In this document: one piece after another, positions 4,384-27,783 of the stretch
How the letters are laid out: every line of letters starts with the position of its first letter
Numbering within the stretch: position 1 is the stretch's first letter
IMG/VR virus record: IMGVR_UViG_3300018080_001892
Coordinates: 1-37,089 of that record
Reading direction: 5' to 3' (one strand)
Length of the DNA stretch: 37,089 nt
Source of the DNA: a virus
Made by a program: the position numbers and the translations under genes
Notes under the pieces: generated by a model
The model's input: only the letters and a program-made list of their open reading frames with translations
Databases searched by the model: none
Told to the model about the DNA's origin: nothing

Positions 4384-5295
4384 ATGGCAAATTTATTAAA
4401 AAGTTATACAGACTACCCAACGAACCCATCGTTCCTGTACGTTCAGGACGGAATCAACATTGACTATTTGAAATTCAAACAGGCAGGCGGGCGCGGGCTG
4501 ATTATCAGAGCGTCAACCGCTGACCAGATCACGGATGGCGCGTTTAATCATCCGGCAAATTACGTTGACCTGGCAGCAACCGCACACATTCAGGGCGCGT
4601 ATGATGCTGGACTTCTGGCTATCCTGTACCACGAGTTGAGGATCAAACCCGACACCTACGACGTGGACTGGAAGACTCCAGGCGCGGGGTTGCAGTATAG
4701 ATCGCTGGCTTACATAGCGGACAACAGGGTACATCACGGCTATTGTATCGACCTACGGCATCCAGAGGATGACACCGACGGGCATTTGCAAGAAGCGTTG
4801 GATCGGTTCATCGGGGTTATTTCGCAGCTTCGACCGAATGCGAAATTCATCGTCTCGACCAACAAAGATACTTGGCAAAAAGGAGACAAGCGCGTTGAGA
4901 ACTTAATCGGGCAAGCGGACTTCCCGCATCTCGTTCTGCTGATGAACGACTTTTACAGTTCCACAAAGAAACGACCATCATCACGACCTGGTTTATTGGC
5001 AGAGAATAAGTCCTATATGTGGGCGCTGGGTTACACCAATGAATTCAGCACCGATGGATCAAGCGCGTTAGAGATTGTCTATCTCGGCACGGAAAGCGAC
5101 CTGCTTAACAGGTTCGGCAAGCCCGCGAAGTGGCAGATCGGATTGGACGGCGAAACGCCCGAAGATCCACCGGTCGAAGACCCGCCAGAAGACCCCCCCG
5201 AAGACCCGCCAACCGACCCCCCTGTCTCATCCCCCGACCTCGTGGCGGCGGTTGACAGGCTGAACGCGACGCTGAGAGAGGCGTTCAGGTTATGA
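4384..5295 (+). CDS. GH25-like protein with degenerate active site and Pro-rich tail
   Basis: A 303-residue protein with a clear ribosome site (AAAGGAGCA) before ATG. Residues 15-230 follow the beta/alpha-barrel pattern of GH25 muramidase-like proteins (GINIDYLKFKQAG; GAYDAGLLAILYHELR; GYCIDLRHPEDD). The acidic DxE pair of active GH25 enzymes reads D-L-R here, so catalysis is doubtful. Residues about 258-280 are a Pro/Asp/Glu linker (PEDPPVEDPPEDPPEDPP), then a short amphipathic helix. Its stop overlaps the start of the intact GH25 gene. It may be a structural or wall-binding paralogue, or part of a two-subunit lysin; both ideas are inferred. Confidence 0.6.
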   Translation: MANLLKSYTDYPTNPSFLYVQDGINIDYLKFKQAGGRGLIIRASTADQITDGAFNHPANYVDLAATAHIQGAYDAGLLAILYHELRIKPDTYDVDWKTPGAGLQYRSLAYIADNRVHHGYCIDLRHPEDDTDGHLQEALDRFIGVISQLRPNAKFIVSTNKDTWQKGDKRVENLIGQADFPHLVLLMNDFYSSTKKRPSSRPGLLAENKSYMWALGYTNEFSTDGSSALEIVYLGTESDLLNRFGKPAKWQIGLDGETPEDPPVEDPPEDPPEDPPTDPPVSSPDLVAAVDRLNATLREAFRL

Positions 5296-6776: not shown

Positions 6777-7667
6777 TTGCTGACAACCCGCACACGCGGC
6801 AACGAGTGGAGGGATAGACGAACGAAACTTGAAAACTCAGGGAACGTTCTATCGGTTTATTATGATGGGATTAACAAGGGGTGGTATAAAGATTTTCTAT
6901 TGATGGCAGACCTGCACTGGGACAGTATCTATTGCAGGCGCGACATCCTGAAACGCCACCTCGACGAAGCGCACACACGCAAGGCGCGCATTATCATCGC
7001 GGGAGACCTGTTCGACGCGATGCAGGGCAAGTTCGACCCGCGCAAGAACATGGATGAATTACGACCAGAGTTCAAGGTCAACGACTACTATGGCAAGGTC
7101 ACATCCGAAGCGGTGAAATACTTTGCCCCTTACGCTGGCGACCTGCTGCTTCTCGGCAAGGGCAACCACGAAACAGCCGTGACCAAGAACTCCAACATCG
7201 ACATCCTTTCTAACCTGGTGTACGGGTTACATCAAGAATACGGGTCAGAGTGCATCATGGGCGGGTACGGCGGGTGGATCCGTTTCATGTTCAAAATATC
7301 CACCATCCGCACATCGATCAAGATGCGCTACTATCACGGCACGGGCGGCAGTGCGCCGGTCACCAAAGGCACGATACAGACCAACCGCCAGGCGGTGTAT
7401 CTGCCCGATGCGGACGTGGTACTGAACGGGCACAACCACAACGCATACTGGCTGCCGCTGGCACGCGAGCGGCTGAGCGACAAAGGGCGGCTGTATCAGG
7501 ACTTGATACACTTCGTCAGGACGCCAGGCTACAAGCAGACATGGAACGCAAAAGAGGGGTTCGACATAGAGAAACTACCCGACCCCAAACCGCTTGGCAG
7601 CGTGTGGATGCGCATGATAGCCGACGGCGGGAACGTGCGGCTGGAGTTTACTCCGGCGGTGGAATAG
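6777..7667 (+). CDS. Calcineurin-like metallophosphoesterase
   Basis: A 296-residue protein with all metal-binding motifs in order: ADLHWD (DxH) near residue 45, AGDLFDA (GDxxD) near 80, GKGNHET (GNHE) near 125, a lone His in YYHGTGG, and NGHNHNAYW (GHxH) near 220. These coordinate a two-metal centre that hydrolyses phosphodiester or phosphomonoester bonds. The substrate cannot be read from the sequence. The TTG start at 6777 is the first possible and has no good ribosome site; the conserved domain starts about 40 residues later, so the true start may be internal. It is the last + strand gene before the RNA gene. Confidence 0.8.
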   Translation: MLTTRTRGNEWRDRRTKLENSGNVLSVYYDGINKGWYKDFLLMADLHWDSIYCRRDILKRHLDEAHTRKARIIIAGDLFDAMQGKFDPRKNMDELRPEFKVNDYYGKVTSEAVKYFAPYAGDLLLLGKGNHETAVTKNSNIDILSNLVYGLHQEYGSECIMGGYGGWIRFMFKISTIRTSIKMRYYHGTGGSAPVTKGTIQTNRQAVYLPDADVVLNGHNHNAYWLPLARERLSDKGRLYQDLIHFVRTPGYKQTWNAKEGFDIEKLPDPKPLGSVWMRMIADGGNVRLEFTPAVE

Positions 7668-7724
7668 CCATCATCCTTCTCCTCCCTCCCTATGGTTGCC
7701 CTGGCTCCGGCTGGAGCAACCGAC

Positions 7725-7753
7725 TTGCATACGGTACGGGAGTATGGTATATT
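7725..7753 (+). promoter_or_regulatory. Sigma70-type promoter for the RNA gene
   Basis: TTGCAT at 7725-7730 and TATATT at 7748-7753 are separated by exactly 17 bases, close to the sigma70 optimum. Transcription would start near 7760. No ORF with a ribosome site follows before the terminator at 7886-7916, so the promoter appears dedicated to a short RNA. Confidence 0.6.
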
Positions 7754-7759
7754 TATGGT

Positions 7760-7917
7760 ATCCTTCGGGGTTCGTTCACAGAGAACTGTGGTTTAAGTCC
7801 ACCTGGCGGCGTGACCGCAGGTGGCAATAGCGACCCGGTACCAGGTCGTTCCATAGCTCGTCCGCCATGTGCGGAAGGAGTAACACCACCGTCCTTCGGG
7901 GCGGTGGTTGCTTTTTA
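7760..7917 (+). ncRNA. Candidate structured RNA, about 158 nt, five consecutive hairpins
   Basis: The segment has its own promoter and ends in an intrinsic terminator. By eye it folds into five stems. H1 is CACAG 7777-7781 with CTGTG 7786-7790. H2 is CCACCTG 7799-7805 with CAGGTGG 7818-7824, plus inner CGG/CCG. H3 is CGACC 7831-7835 with GGTCG 7844-7848, extendable by two pairs. H4 is TCCGC 7861-7865 with GCGGA 7871-7875. H5 is the terminator stem. There is no start codon with a plausible downstream frame. It is not a tRNA or tmRNA and I do not recognise a riboswitch core. It lies between the lytic genes and the integrase on the opposite strand. The function is unknown. Confidence 0.6.
7885..7916 (+). 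terminator. Intrinsic terminator with UUCG loop
   Basis: ACCACCGTCC at 7885-7894 pairs with GGGCGGTGGT at 7899-7908 (10 bp, one G-T pair) around a TTCG tetraloop, followed by TTGCTTTTT. It ends the RNA transcript and probably also read-through from the metallophosphoesterase operon. Confidence 0.85.
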
Positions 7918-7920
7918 TAT

Positions 7921-8286
7921 CCCAAAGTAACGAAAAATGTATACTGTCTGATATGTTAGTATCTTTTGTACTTCGTTGTTAACTCAAAACGGGTAATATC
8001 GTAATATAAAATAAACTGGTCGATTTCGACCAGATATACATTGTATATACCAACCTTGTTGGTCATATAACCAATGTAATATATTATCATTTATGCTAAT
8101 TAACTGAAATAACGCTGGTTCACTATTATCAATTTCACACAATTGGGGTGTTTCACCACATGGTGAAAAACTTGTTTTTAGCGAAAACAACCTTAGATAC
8201 CAGTAACATTTAAGTAACATAAATCAAAGTGAAATTTATTGCCTGTTAACCCGCCAAACCGCCGTTAAGGTGCAATTTATTGCTTG
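7921..8286. other. AT-rich gene-free region with multiple palindromes
   Basis: There is no supported ORF in these 366 bases between the RNA terminator and the integrase stop. Perfect inverted repeats stand close together: CTGGTCGA/TCGACCAG at 8016-8033, ATATAC/GTATAT at 8034-8048, ACCAAC/GTTGGT at 8049-8063, and TTTCACCA/TGGTGAAA at 8151-8168. AGTAACAT occurs twice near 8202-8220. None has a clear T-run, so they look like protein-binding sites or a replication/maintenance locus rather than terminators. Confidence 0.5.
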
Positions 8287-8289
8287 TTA
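8229..8289. repeat. 20-bp direct repeat pair next to integrase 3' end
   Basis: GTGAAATTTATTGCCTGTTA at 8229-8248 and GTGCAATTTATTGCTTGTTA at 8270-8289 match at 18 of 20 positions and are 41 bases apart, about four helical turns. The second copy overlaps the integrase stop codon. Spacing on one face of the helix suggests paired protein binding; the protein is unknown. Confidence 0.6.
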
Positions 8290-9219
8290 CAGCCTCCACC
8301 TATCCGCCGGACTTGCTCGCCGGTGCGCGGCTTCCGTGTCCGTGTCAGCCAGCAGCAGGTAGTGTCTGACCATCTCCAGCGATGAGTGTCCCAACAGCCG
8401 TTGCAGTGTGAAGATATCCCCGCCGTTGCGGATGAACTGGATAGCGAAGGTGTGCCGGAAGCGGTGAGGGTGAACGTGCGAGACACCGGCTTGCTTGCCG
8501 ATGTGATTCAATACGTGCCTCACGTTGTTGCGGTCAACCGCCTTGCCGCTGGATGATAGGAATAGCGGATCATCGTCTCGTAGGTCTTCGCGGGTTTGTA
8601 AATATTTCCACAGCGTCATCGTGGCTGCCTTGCCGATAAACACGGTGCGGCCTTTCGTTTTCCTGCCTGTCCCGTAGGGATGCACCTTGACCTCGCCGGT
8701 CTGCAAATTTACATCCTCAACTTTCAGTCTGCCCAATTCACCGATACGCAAACCGGTATCAAGCAGGACCATGATGATGGCTGAGTCGCGTTTTGCCGTG
8801 GGTCGTTTCATGGTATAGCGCCGCTTCCCCTCTTTGGTATCTGCCAGTCTGGTACGCTCCGCGCCGGTCAGCAGTTTGCGGATCTCGTCTTCCGTGAAGG
8901 GAACGATCTCACGATGTGCATAGCGCGGGCGTTTCAGTTCACCGTCCGGGCGTTCGATGCCCAGTTCGTTAGCACACCAGCCGAAAAAGGTACGTATTGC
9001 TTTCCACATATTTTCTACCGACGATCCAGCATATCCCGCGTCTGACTGCATGATCATAAATCCACGCAGGTCGTTGAGTGTGATGTCCTCAACATCGGAA
9101 TTACTCAAGTGTTCTGTCAGCTTGTCCAACGCCCAGATGTACAGGTCAACCGTGTTGTGGCTGTACCCGTCAGCGCGCAGGGTGAGGACAAAACCCTCGA
9201 TGGCTTCTGTCAAAATCAT
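8287..9219 (-). CDS. int: Tyrosine recombinase/integrase
   Basis: The start chosen is ATG at 9219 (MILTEAIEGFVLTL), which has an AGAAAGGCGG ribosome site about 7 bases upstream; a longer frame to 9315 would run into the att region and lacks one. The 310-residue protein has an N-terminal SAM-like DNA-binding domain (residues 1-95) and a catalytic domain with DTGLRIGELGRL (catalytic Arg), the Lys of GRKTKG, HPHRFRHTF (HxxR), LLGHSS (His) and the nucleophile in VRHYLLL. It integrates and, with a partner, excises the phage at the adjacent att site. It is convergent with the lytic genes. Confidence 0.95.
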   Translation of the reverse strand: MILTEAIEGFVLTLRADGYSHNTVDLYIWALDKLTEHLSNSDVEDITLNDLRGFMIMQSDAGYAGSSVENMWKAIRTFFGWCANELGIERPDGELKRPRYAHREIVPFTEDEIRKLLTGAERTRLADTKEGKRRYTMKRPTAKRDSAIIMVLLDTGLRIGELGRLKVEDVNLQTGEVKVHPYGTGRKTKGRTVFIGKAATMTLWKYLQTREDLRDDDPLFLSSSGKAVDRNNVRHVLNHIGKQAGVSHVHPHRFRHTFAIQFIRNGGDIFTLQRLLGHSSLEMVRHYLLLADTDTEAAHRRASPADRWRL

Positions 9220-9275
9220 CTTATACCGCCTTTCTACGTAAGAGGTTTGCGGTAGTCCATGATCCTGAACTGCCA

Positions 9276-9398
9276 ACCCCTTACCTGTTAGATGTATCGC
9301 GGTAAGGGGTCTCAAGGTCGGGGCGCTGGGATTCGAACCCAGGACCTCTTACACCCCATGCACAGTCACCGTGAGCCATACCGCGCACCCCTTACCGC
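9276..9398. repeat. Three arm-type repeats (ACCCCTTACC) flanking the att core
   Basis: ACCCCTTACC occurs at 9276-9285. Its exact reverse complement GGTAAGGGGT is at 9301-9310, extended to GCGGTAAGGGGT from 9299, and the 12-mer ACCCCTTACCGC is at 9387-9398. Copies two and three form a perfect 12-bp inverted repeat on either side of the tRNA-like core. Copies one and two could also pair as a 10-bp hairpin with a 15-base loop. The layout matches arm-type binding sites of a heterobivalent tyrosine integrase, although a leader hairpin is possible for the first two. Confidence 0.55.
9316..9360 (-). other. attP: Putative attP core: tRNA-Pro(GGG) 3' half
   Basis: Read on the minus strand, this segment holds an anticodon loop ATGGGGT (anticodon GGG), the T-arm CTGGG-TTCGAAT-CCCAG, the 3' acceptor half CGCCCCG, then ACC. 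The 5' half (to about 9392) does not form a D-arm and makes a poor anticodon stem, so this is not a functional tRNA. Phages that integrate into tRNA genes carry just this 3' part so that the host gene is rebuilt. The position directly upstream of int supports an attP core. The predicted target is a host tRNA-Pro gene. Confidence 0.65.
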
Positions 9399-9579
9399 CA
9401 TCCGGCGCAGGTATGTGGCGTCGACGGTTGGAGCGGGTTATGGTGTGTACTTTTAATTGATTATCCCGTTTTGTGACTAATTGTTTATACAATACGTTGT
9501 ATTTATATTTTTTTGATTTATAATTAGAACATTGTATCTATATAGGGAGGGTAACAATGATCCGGTTCTTTGACCGCGA
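9399..9579. other. AT-rich spacer between att and repressor 3' end
   Basis: There is no gene supported on the minus strand here. TTGTATTTATAT near 9498 and TTGTATCTATAT near 9533 are near-identical direct repeats, and TACAA/TTGTA near 9487-9500 could form a small hairpin followed on the + strand by a T-rich run. A TATAAT lies at 9519-9524 and a good ribosome site (GGGAGGG) at 9545-9551 precedes an ATG at 9557, facing into the antisense strand of the repressor gene. Confidence 0.4.
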
Positions 9580-9996
9580 CTACTCGGAGTTTTCAATCGG
9601 CGTGTCTTCAAATTCGCAACCGAACTGCTTGAAAACCTCGATAGCCAGTTTGATACCCTCCGGTGAGTTTACATCGGAAATACCGGAGGATTGCATTTGC
9701 TTTTTCAACTCTGCCTGCGCTGTTTGTATCTTTTCTAGGAGCGCAGACGGAACCCAAAACTCGTCAGGGCGGCGCATGTCCAAAACATCGTAAATTTCAT
9801 AACCAAGTCTGTTTGCTAAAATATCAATATATTCTTTACTAGGGGGATGATACCCATTTAACCACTGCGATAATGCAGATTGCTTTACGCCTAAGTACCT
9901 GGCGAAAGACGAGTATGACTTTCTTTGCTTGGTACTCTTTTCCCATTTAATAAATTGATCCATCAAATATTTTTGATATTTTTTCATCCATAACAT
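9580..9996 (-). CDS. Cro/CI-family (XRE-type) repressor
   Basis: A 138-residue protein with an XRE helix-turn-helix at residues about 25-65: KSYSSFARYLGVKQSALSQWLNG, with recognition helix QSALSQWL. The rest is a helical tail with no visible LexA-type protease motif, so cleavage-based induction is not evident. The start at 9996 has AAGGA upstream; a second ATG at 9987 lacks one. It is divergent from the RHH gene at 10086 and is the likely lysogeny repressor. DNA between the two genes holds its probable operators. Confidence 0.85.
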   Translation of the reverse strand: MLWMKKYQKYLMDQFIKWEKSTKQRKSYSSFARYLGVKQSALSQWLNGYHPPSKEYIDILANRLGYEIYDVLDMRRPDEFWVPSALLEKIQTAQAELKKQMQSSGISDVNSPEGIKLAIEVFKQFGCEFEDTPIENSE

Positions 9997-24034: not shown

Positions 24035-24063
24035 TTGACACAGCACCCGATTAATGCTATACT
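24035..24063 (+). promoter_or_regulatory. Strong sigma70 promoter
   Basis: A perfect -35 TTGACA (24035-24040) and TATACT (24058-24063) are separated by 17 bases. TATAG repeats (24066-24081: AGTATAGTATAGTATA) follow at and past the expected start near 24070 and could be an operator. It is the best promoter match in the window. Confidence 0.8.
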
Positions 24064-24069
24064 CTAGTA

Positions 24070-24144
24070 TAGTATAGTATAAGACATCTGCCAGAGCGAA
24101 TTATAAGTTGCCGGGATGCCCAAAATGGGCGTCTCGGTTTTTTT
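24070..24144 (+). ncRNA. Short transcript (about 75 nt) or attenuated leader
   Basis: The promoter at 24035-24063 and the terminator at 24111-24144 define an RNA of about 75 nt with no ORF of useful length. It could be a discrete small RNA or the leader of the following regulator gene, with the terminator acting as a read-through control point. The sequence alone does not separate these. Confidence 0.5.
24111..24144 (+). terminator. Strong intrinsic terminator
   Basis: CCGGGATGCCC (24111-24121) pairs with GGGCGTCTCGG (24127-24137), 11 bp with two G-T pairs and loop AAAAT, followed by seven T. It separates the early operon from the regulator and late genes. Confidence 0.9.
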
Positions 24145-24208
24145 GTTTAATTTTTATCTTTGGTTCTAAAAAGTACCTTCTCACTCACTTAATAAGTAGA
24201 GGAAACAT

Positions 24209-24466
24209 TTGAAAACAGTAAAAGAGCGCATTTATCAAGCAATAGAAGATTGTCATGAAAAACAATATGACATTGAAAATATTGATCTTAGCATAGATGT
24301 AAACATTGCTTTGCAACAGTTACCTCAGAATGAACGCCGTGCTGTTGTCTTAGAACATTGGGGATATTCACAGTGTGAGATTGGGGAGTTTTTAGGATTT
24401 TCTCAAAGAGGGGTGGGAAAAATGATTGACCGTGCAAAAGAGAAGTTAAGGAAAATATTGGCATGA
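24209..24466 (+). CDS. Sigma-70 region 4-like regulator (late gene activator candidate)
   Basis: TTG start behind AGAGGAAAC. The 85-residue protein contains IALQQLPQNERRAVVLEHWG followed by YSQCEIGEFLGFSQRGVGKM and IDRAKEKLRKIL, the helix-turn-helix of sigma region 4 (LP..ER.V..L...G.S..EIA...G.S...V...). ArpU/RinA-type late activators of Gram-positive phages share this fold and sit at the same place, just before packaging genes. It probably switches on late transcription. Confidence 0.75.
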   Translation: MKTVKERIYQAIEDCHEKQYDIENIDLSIDVNIALQQLPQNERRAVVLEHWGYSQCEIGEFLGFSQRGVGKMIDRAKEKLRKILA

Positions 24467-26143: not shown

Positions 26144-26564
26144 TTTGCAAGCAATATTAGAAGGATTGGAAGATAGAGAGCTTGACTATGTTTTGGAACG
26201 CAGTAAGGTTTCAAAGGATAGTCAAGCTCTTCGAGCAATGGGTATCTCTCCAGGAACTTTCTACGGATGGGAAAAGAACAAGCGCGACCACCTCAACGAA
26301 TTGGCGCAGGAACTAAAGCGAGCAAGTGCTGTAAGAGCAACCATGATATTACAGGGTGCAGTAGAAGAAGCGGCAAACGTCAAAATCGAAGGGTTGAAGG
26401 AAAAGAGAGACAAACGTCTAAAGCAGAACGTAGCTACCGAGATCCTTGACCGTCAACTTGGCAAGCCAACACAACGGCAAGAAACAGAACTATCAACTAA
26501 AGACGATAAGCCAATATTTATCGTAAGCCACATTGAAGATGACAGCGCAGCAGATCAAGATTGA
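26136..26564 (+). CDS. terS: Small terminase subunit (TerS) candidate
   Basis: A 142-residue helical protein placed directly before TerL. SKDSQALRAMGISPGTFYGW is a helix-turn-helix, matching the DNA-recognition domain of small terminases; ATMILQGAVEEAANVKIEGL and LKQNVATEILDRQLGKPTQR form the oligomerisation helices. It recognises the packaging site and stimulates TerL. The assignment is from position plus the helix-turn-helix. Confidence 0.75.
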   Translation: MNDLQAILEGLEDRELDYVLERSKVSKDSQALRAMGISPGTFYGWEKNKRDHLNELAQELKRASAVRATMILQGAVEEAANVKIEGLKEKRDKRLKQNVATEILDRQLGKPTQRQETELSTKDDKPIFIVSHIEDDSAADQD

Positions 26565-27783
26565 TCCGAACCTTTACAATCGGGCATATTACCCGTATAT
26601 AGAAGCACCGCAGCGAACCCAGATTTTCTTTGGTGGTTCATCCTCCGGTAAGTCGGTATTCCTGGCTCAACGATGCGTAGTTGACATCCTCAAGGGTGGT
26701 CGCAACTACCTGGTATGTCGAGCGGTAGGGCGCACGATCCGGCGGTCGGTGTATAACGAGATAGTCAAGGTGATCCGCGACTGGGGCTTGTCAGAGATAT
26801 TTAACATCAACAAGTCGGAGTTGATAATCACCTGCGACAACGGGTATCAGATCATGTTCTCTGGGTTGGATGACGTTGAGAAGGTCAAGTCTATGACGCC
26901 GGAAAACGGGGTACTGACTGACGTTTGGGTAGAGGAATCAACGGAGACAGACCGCGACTCGGTGAAGCAGCTCTACAAGCGGCAACGTGGAAAGAGTGAA
27001 TATCCCAAACGACTGACGATGAGCTTCAACCCTATCCTGCAAACGCACTGGATATACAACGAGTATTTCAAGGGTTGGGCTGATGACCAGGCGATCAAAG
27101 ACATAGACAATCTGTTTATCTTCAAGACAACGTACAAAGACAATCGCTTTCTGACCAAAGAGGATATAGCAGACCTTGAGAATGAATCGGATGAATATTT
27201 CTACAACGTTTACACGCTGGGAAACTGGGGCGTACTCGGAGACGTCATATTCACCAACTGGAAGGTCGTGGATCTTACCGAGCAGCGCAAGCGGTTTGAC
27301 GCCTTCCACAACGGCCTTGATTTCGGGTTTGCCAGTGATCCGGCAGCGGTCGTGGTCACGGCGCGGAATGCAGCGAAAAAGGAAATTTATATTTTCGCTG
27401 AGCTGTACGAGCGAGGACTGACTAACGACGTTCTTGCTGAAGATGTTGTCGGGATGATCGGGCAGGACTACGTTTACTGTGACAACGCCGAGCCGAAGTC
27501 AATACAGGAATTGAAGGATCACGGCGTGAGGGCATTGCCAACCGAGAAGGGCAAAGACAGCGTACTTCACGGTATCCAGTGGTTGCAGCAGCACACGATA
27601 TACGTTGACAAGCGGTGCGTCCATATGCAGCAGGAATTACAACAGTACCAATGGCAAAAAGACAGAGACGGGAACTCGATAAAGAAGCCGGTGGATAAGA
27701 ACAACCACCTGATAGACGGGTTGAGATATGCCTATAACCGAGAATGGAAAACGAGACAGGTAGCCAGGAGCTATCAAGGTTAA
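26539..27783 (+). CDS. terL: Large terminase subunit (TerL)
   Basis: The start chosen is ATG 26539 (MTAQQIKIDPNLYNRAYYPY), inside the end of terS; TTG 26533 is an alternative. The ATPase domain has Walker A FFGGSSSGKS and Walker B VLTDVWVEES. The nuclease domain has GLDFGFASDPA (first Asp), YCDNAEPKSI and NNHLIDGLRYAY (last Asp). About 414 residues, normal for SPP1/T4-like TerL. It translocates and cuts DNA at the portal. Confidence 0.95.
   Translation: MTAQQIKIDPNLYNRAYYPYIEAPQRTQIFFGGSSSGKSVFLAQRCVVDILKGGRNYLVCRAVGRTIRRSVYNEIVKVIRDWGLSEIFNINKSELIITCDNGYQIMFSGLDDVEKVKSMTPENGVLTDVWVEESTETDRDSVKQLYKRQRGKSEYPKRLTMSFNPILQTHWIYNEYFKGWADDQAIKDIDNLFIFKTTYKDNRFLTKEDIADLENESDEYFYNVYTLGNWGVLGDVIFTNWKVVDLTEQRKRFDAFHNGLDFGFASDPAAVVVTARNAAKKEIYIFAELYERGLTNDVLAEDVVGMIGQDYVYCDNAEPKSIQELKDHGVRALPTEKGKDSVLHGIQWLQQHTIYVDKRCVHMQQELQQYQWQKDRDGNSIKKPVDKNNHLIDGLRYAYNREWKTRQVARSYQG

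Follow-up and report, generated by a model that had tools for sequence, protein, structure and literature searches.

Genomic setting and layout of the unit

The window analysed here, a 37,089-nt stretch from an IMG/VR virus record, carries TerL, portal and major capsid genes. Upstream of the unit under study (7725-7917, + strand) lie genes for a lysozyme (GH25), a DNA methylase and a calcineurin-type phosphoesterase, while a terminator-like stem, a tyrosine integrase gene and a helix-turn-helix repressor gene follow on the other strand (Table 1). The first-pass annotation had placed the unit between the lytic genes and an opposite-strand integrase, and the gene calls agree with this. Just before the integrase gene there is the 3' half of a tRNA, made of the T-arm and the acceptor strand. 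Such tRNA 3' halves beside an integrase typically mark attP sites, and this one is likely the attP core; the tRNA-Ala that ARAGORN called at 9316-9405, overlapping it, is probably false.

The promoter and the UUCG-loop terminator were both located where the first-pass annotation had put them. The -35 element (TTGCAT, 7725-7730) is separated by 17 nt from the -10 element (TATATT, 7748-7753). This promoter is weak, with 8 of 12 consensus positions matched by manual count, and it is not listed by the consensus scan, which needs 9 of 12. It is credible because a sister phage, called G001 here (IMG/VR 3300031227_000340), carries TTGACA-17-TACAAT at the aligned place. The terminator stem-loop, found by scan, occupies 7885-7908 and its T-run reaches 7917. 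Some 130 nt separate promoter and terminator, and they contain no credible ORF, the absence of an ORF having been noted before: the sole long frame across the stretch (7250-7930, GTG start) is spurious and overlies the phosphoesterase gene in another frame. The body is not conserved in any frame either. Of the features of a stand-alone sRNA gene, the unit shows a promoter of its own (though a weak one), an intrinsic terminator and the lack of a conserved ORF. The hairpin upstream of the promoter is predicted to be an end-of-operon hairpin or an operator.

A second stand-alone unit was observed elsewhere in the window (24035-24145, + strand), with a TTGACA-17-TATACT promoter, about 70 nt and a strong terminator (CCGGGATGCCC..TTTTTTT). 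It just precedes a small sigma-factor-like gene (24209-24466).

Table 1. Features of the locus and tRNA-like elements of related phages (window positions unless a contig is named)
Feature	Position	Strand	Basis
Calcineurin-type phosphoesterase gene	6777-7667	+	
Conserved flank, from phosphoesterase stop codon through -35	7665-7742	+	88% identity over 78 bp to G001
Upstream hairpin GGTTGC..GCAACC	7694-7721	+	fold and comparison; perfect UUCG-loop hairpin in sister
Promoter TTGCAT-17-TATATT	7725-7753	+	sequence; TTGACA-17-TACAAT at aligned place in sister
Predicted transcript, about 158 nt	7760-7917	+	start inferred from -10 element; fold z -2.93
H1, UUCG loop, 4 bp	7760-7771	+	predicted fold
H2, loop AGAA, 6 bp	7776-7791	+	predicted fold
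H3, CCACCTG.CGG / CCG.CAGGTGG, 10 bp with bulge	7797-7825	+	predicted fold
H4, 7 bp, loop containing palindrome GGUACC	7829-7850	+	predicted fold
H5	7856-7881	+	predicted fold; 7856-7858 has an alternative partner in another predicted fold
Intrinsic terminator, UUCG loop, 10 pairs, then T-run	7885-7917	+	scan; 93% identity over 30 bp in sister
Terminator-like stem	8016-8033	-	
Tyrosine integrase gene	8287-9315	-	
tRNA 3' half	9318-9358	-	
Helix-turn-helix repressor gene	9580-9996	-	
Anticodon-armless tRNA-like element, L092 (= G001)	8439-8497	-	missed by ARAGORN; sequence in common with L094
Anticodon-armless tRNA-like element, L094	11770-11833	-	missed by ARAGORN; sequence in common with L092

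Predicted fold and database searches

The first-pass annotation had described hairpins in series before the terminator, and the predicted minimum-energy fold of 7753-7886 contains five (H1-H5). Compared with dinucleotide shuffles, the window transcript with its terminator reaches a z-score of -2.93 (1 of 200 shuffles as stable), which becomes -2.20 without the terminator, and the stretch 7753-7860 gives -1.58. Among 1478 GC-corrected 150-nt segments of the genome, those at the locus rank 39, 58 and 89. The stems are thus not exceptional by stability, the fold is modestly better than chance, and the stability of this RNA would not by itself establish an RNA gene. Two structural candidates were set aside. 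The GGUACC palindrome in the H4 loop, considered as a possible kissing dimer, is insufficiently rare to count, and a closing helix UAUGG/CCAUA (7754-7758 with 7851-7855) was dropped, its 5' strand lying upstream of the expected start site.

None of 4227 Rfam families reaches its gathering score in the window, in line with the earlier statement that no known family is recognisable. The top Rfam score, 19.7 bits (E 0.9), belongs to the Pseudomonas rnk leader (RF01772) and comes from the UUCG terminator hairpin; it falls well short of the gathering score (55) and is at chance level. Searches for the body in viral records related by capsid, terminase or phosphoesterase, and in GenBank phages, gave no homologue. 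In the plasmid search, a Frondihabitans plasmid matched 50 nt at 82% identity (E 1e-3); this match, which covers H5 and some of the terminator, was taken as chance. The matches from exact-pattern scans with GTGGTTTAAGTCCACC and AGGTGGCAATAGCGACC all lacked shared flanks.

Neighbouring proteins were also used as queries, yielding 31 loci for the phosphoesterase, 29 for TerL, 73 for the major capsid protein and none for the integrase. A 303-aa late protein matched only G001, and TerL searched in bacterial and archaeal genomes gave one 3.2-kb contig. Apart from G001, all neighbour-search records examined lack the RNA unit. A degenerate pattern of the upstream hairpin likewise matched no viral contig besides G001.

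Targets were sought by antisense pairing against 58 translation-start regions. The best target does not stand out from shuffled sequences (8 of 60), and the duplex with the int start region is not among the leading ones.

The corresponding unit in a sister phage

The nearest relative with this region among viral contigs is G001, a 27-kb contig whose TerL is 82% identical. After its own phosphoesterase gene it carries a corresponding RNA unit, with a perfect UUCG hairpin (GGTTGCCCTGGC-TTCG-GCTGGGGCAACC) and the near-consensus promoter. The terminator stem is retained via wobble changes, with a T-run poorer than that of the window. Since the flanks are 88% (upstream, 78 bp) and 93% (terminator, 30 bp) identical, against 74% for terminase DNA, the expression signals appear to be under selection in both phages.

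The window integrase has no match anywhere along the 27 kb of G001, and the interval from the RNA to the early genes contains no integrase or repressor; the RNA is therefore not tied to the lysogeny module. This bears directly on an antisense or leader-type regulator of integrase or of the lysogeny decision; regulation of int was a role that the first-pass annotation had raised. The position of the unit speaks for such a regulator, as it adjoins int, the attP-like tRNA 3' half and the repressor gene. However, the unit is kept in a phage without an integrase match or a nearby repressor, no antisense target rises above shuffles and int offers no leading duplex, so that we consider this role highly improbable.

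The bodies of the two units show no alignment better than chance (60 of 500 shuffles score as well; p ~0.09 in another test), nor does tree-edit distance clearly show their folds to be similar (11 of 100 shuffles are equally close). The G001 body itself folds far beyond chance, with a z-score of -6.5, or -4.9 without the terminator. It is closed by a 7-bp helix, in which GACCAGC at the expected transcript start pairs with GCTGGTC just before the terminator.

These data also bear on the view that the locus is an operon-end boundary with no functional RNA. On this view, the late operon is shielded from the convergent integrase gene by the hairpin and the terminator, and the promoter-like site has little strength or is a vestige. 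The convergent gene order with its terminator-like stem on the opposite strand, the window promoter under the scan threshold and a body fold just modestly above chance would all suit such a boundary. However, G001 has a near-consensus promoter and a very strongly folded body inside the same boundary, the unit is kept there although the convergent integrase is absent, and insulation does not need 150-200 nt between promoter and terminator. We regard a pure boundary as quite unlikely.

Inside the closing helix, the G001 RNA contains the element CCGGCAG-CG-GTGT-GGTGGGA-ACAC-ACAAATTCAA-GCGGG-TTCAAAT-CCCGC-CTGCCGG, that is, acceptor, D-arm and T-arm of a tRNA-like structure without an anticodon arm. 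Another related phage (L094) carries a second, similar element. When aligned, both fit tRNA numbering (acceptor, D-stem 10-13/22-25, GG 18-19, A 21 and T-arm), and five pairs change on both sides between them; with two sequences, the alignment is suggestive of an anticodon-armless tRNA-like element and is not proof of one. A strict acceptor plus T-arm scan gave zero matches in shuffled sequence. The elements were also considered as a D-armless tRNA-Pro (GGG/CGG anticodon, C1-G72), for which some bases fit and the common stem register does not. A covariance model of the element (R1; 7-bp acceptor, D-arm and T-arm with TTCRA loop) recovers both parent sequences, and run against 7754-7917 with filters off it finds no match in the window RNA.

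The window does contain a T-arm-like piece (7788-7809), in which GGTTTAAGT-CCACCTGGCGG can be aligned to GGTTCAAATCCCGCCTGCCGG, the T-arm and 3' acceptor strand of G001, at p ~0.02 for a segment chosen post hoc; with the whole tRNA-like element as query, p is 0.21. The piece is only a hint of a relic. It could mean that the unit derives from a tRNA-like RNA gene resembling that of G001, either as a relic or by rearrangement, with promoter, T-arm-like piece and terminator kept and the functional module lost. However, besides the whole-element comparison and the silent covariance model, there is no acceptor 5' strand upstream, and the near-perfect 10-bp H3 occupies the would-be T-stem strand and looks built rather than decayed. 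A relic of this kind is unlikely, in our judgement, and still worth weighing.

Several other RNA elements were observed in related phages. A tmRNA of only about 102 nt lies directly 3' of a terminase-like gene in L118 (12834-12935, + strand); it matches RF00023 end to end at 53.7 bits (E 8.9e-21), which exceeds the gathering score, and lacks about 300 model positions, the tag frame and pseudoknots among them. L110 has a tRNA-like element (~4890-4975, + strand) whose D-loop (GGGCCTGACAGGTGTTCG) is of the tmRNA style and in which a short stem replaces the mRNA domain; Rfam does not recognise it. Elsewhere in G001 (~4560-4683, - strand), a TTGACA-17-TATTAT promoter is followed by an RNA with nested complementary arms, GGCAAACAT/ATGTTTGCC and TAGAGTTGTCTA/TAGACAGCTCTA, which look pseudoknotted and form the top-folded stretch of that scan. 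Moreover, a near-consensus promoter, 80-100 nt, hairpins and a terminator occur together in L238 (near 17376), L236 (near 7451) and L106 (near 13573), all on the + strand.

Proposed reading and comparison with known RNAs

The first-pass annotation had called the locus an independent RNA gene. G001 supports this claim, as a retained promoter and terminator frame its strongly structured non-coding body. The fold of the window transcript with its terminator and the stand-alone units of like plan in other related phages also speak for such a gene. Against it stand the weak window promoter, the modest fold without the terminator and the lack of alignment between the two bodies, and only one relative carrying the unit was found. 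On balance we lean slightly towards reading 7725-7917 as a phage small-RNA gene in its own right, whose expression signals are conserved while its body changes fast or is swapped, and whose product acts in trans.

Such a gene would give a single stable transcript running from about the predicted start to the end of the T-run. The RNA might then act in trans on host or phage RNA or protein, which is the weaker part of the proposal. The part kept between the two phages is the expression frame, made of upstream hairpin, promoter and terminator, and the body between these signals may turn over quickly or get swapped, as would be expected for an arms-race RNA or for an RNA with few sequence constraints. 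In G001, the slot contains a body closed by the end helix, with the anticodon-armless tRNA-like module inside.

A further and quite improbable possibility is that the slot is a hypervariable RNA cassette site, into which different phages load different structured RNAs (in G001, a half-tRNA without anticodon arm) that would counter host RNA processing, translation or tRNA-targeting defence by mimicry or as decoys.

If the small-RNA gene is transcribed, phage RNAs, a poorly known group, would gain one more structured member that no catalogue lists. The case would further indicate that such loci can retain their expression signals while the RNA turns over, and so stay hidden from covariance-based discovery. 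The G001 RNA, with its tRNA-like module lacking the anticodon arm, offers a concrete start for testing phage tRNA mimicry.

Among known systems, a packaging RNA had been proposed earlier and finds no support. The phi29 pRNA type goes with a phi29-type packaging ATPase instead of TerL, and this phage has a TerL-type terminase (Terminase_3 and Terminase_3C, 26533-27783). An anti-defence RNA, another of the earlier suggestions, is a possible role on which the results speak neither way. In contrast to tmRNA and RNAs with a tRNA-like domain (RF00023, RF00005), the window RNA has no such element, and that of G001 lacks both the anticodon arm and a tag frame. GOLLD and ROOL, the ornate phage RNAs (PMC12286853), are likewise structured non-coding RNAs of phage or metagenome origin; the window RNA differs in being only about 158 nt long and in having no Rfam match. 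It resembles the phage-encoded small RNAs reviewed in PMC12197685 in plan, as a predicted short non-coding transcript that has a promoter of its own and ends at an intrinsic terminator; it matches no catalogued family in sequence or structure, and no target was found.
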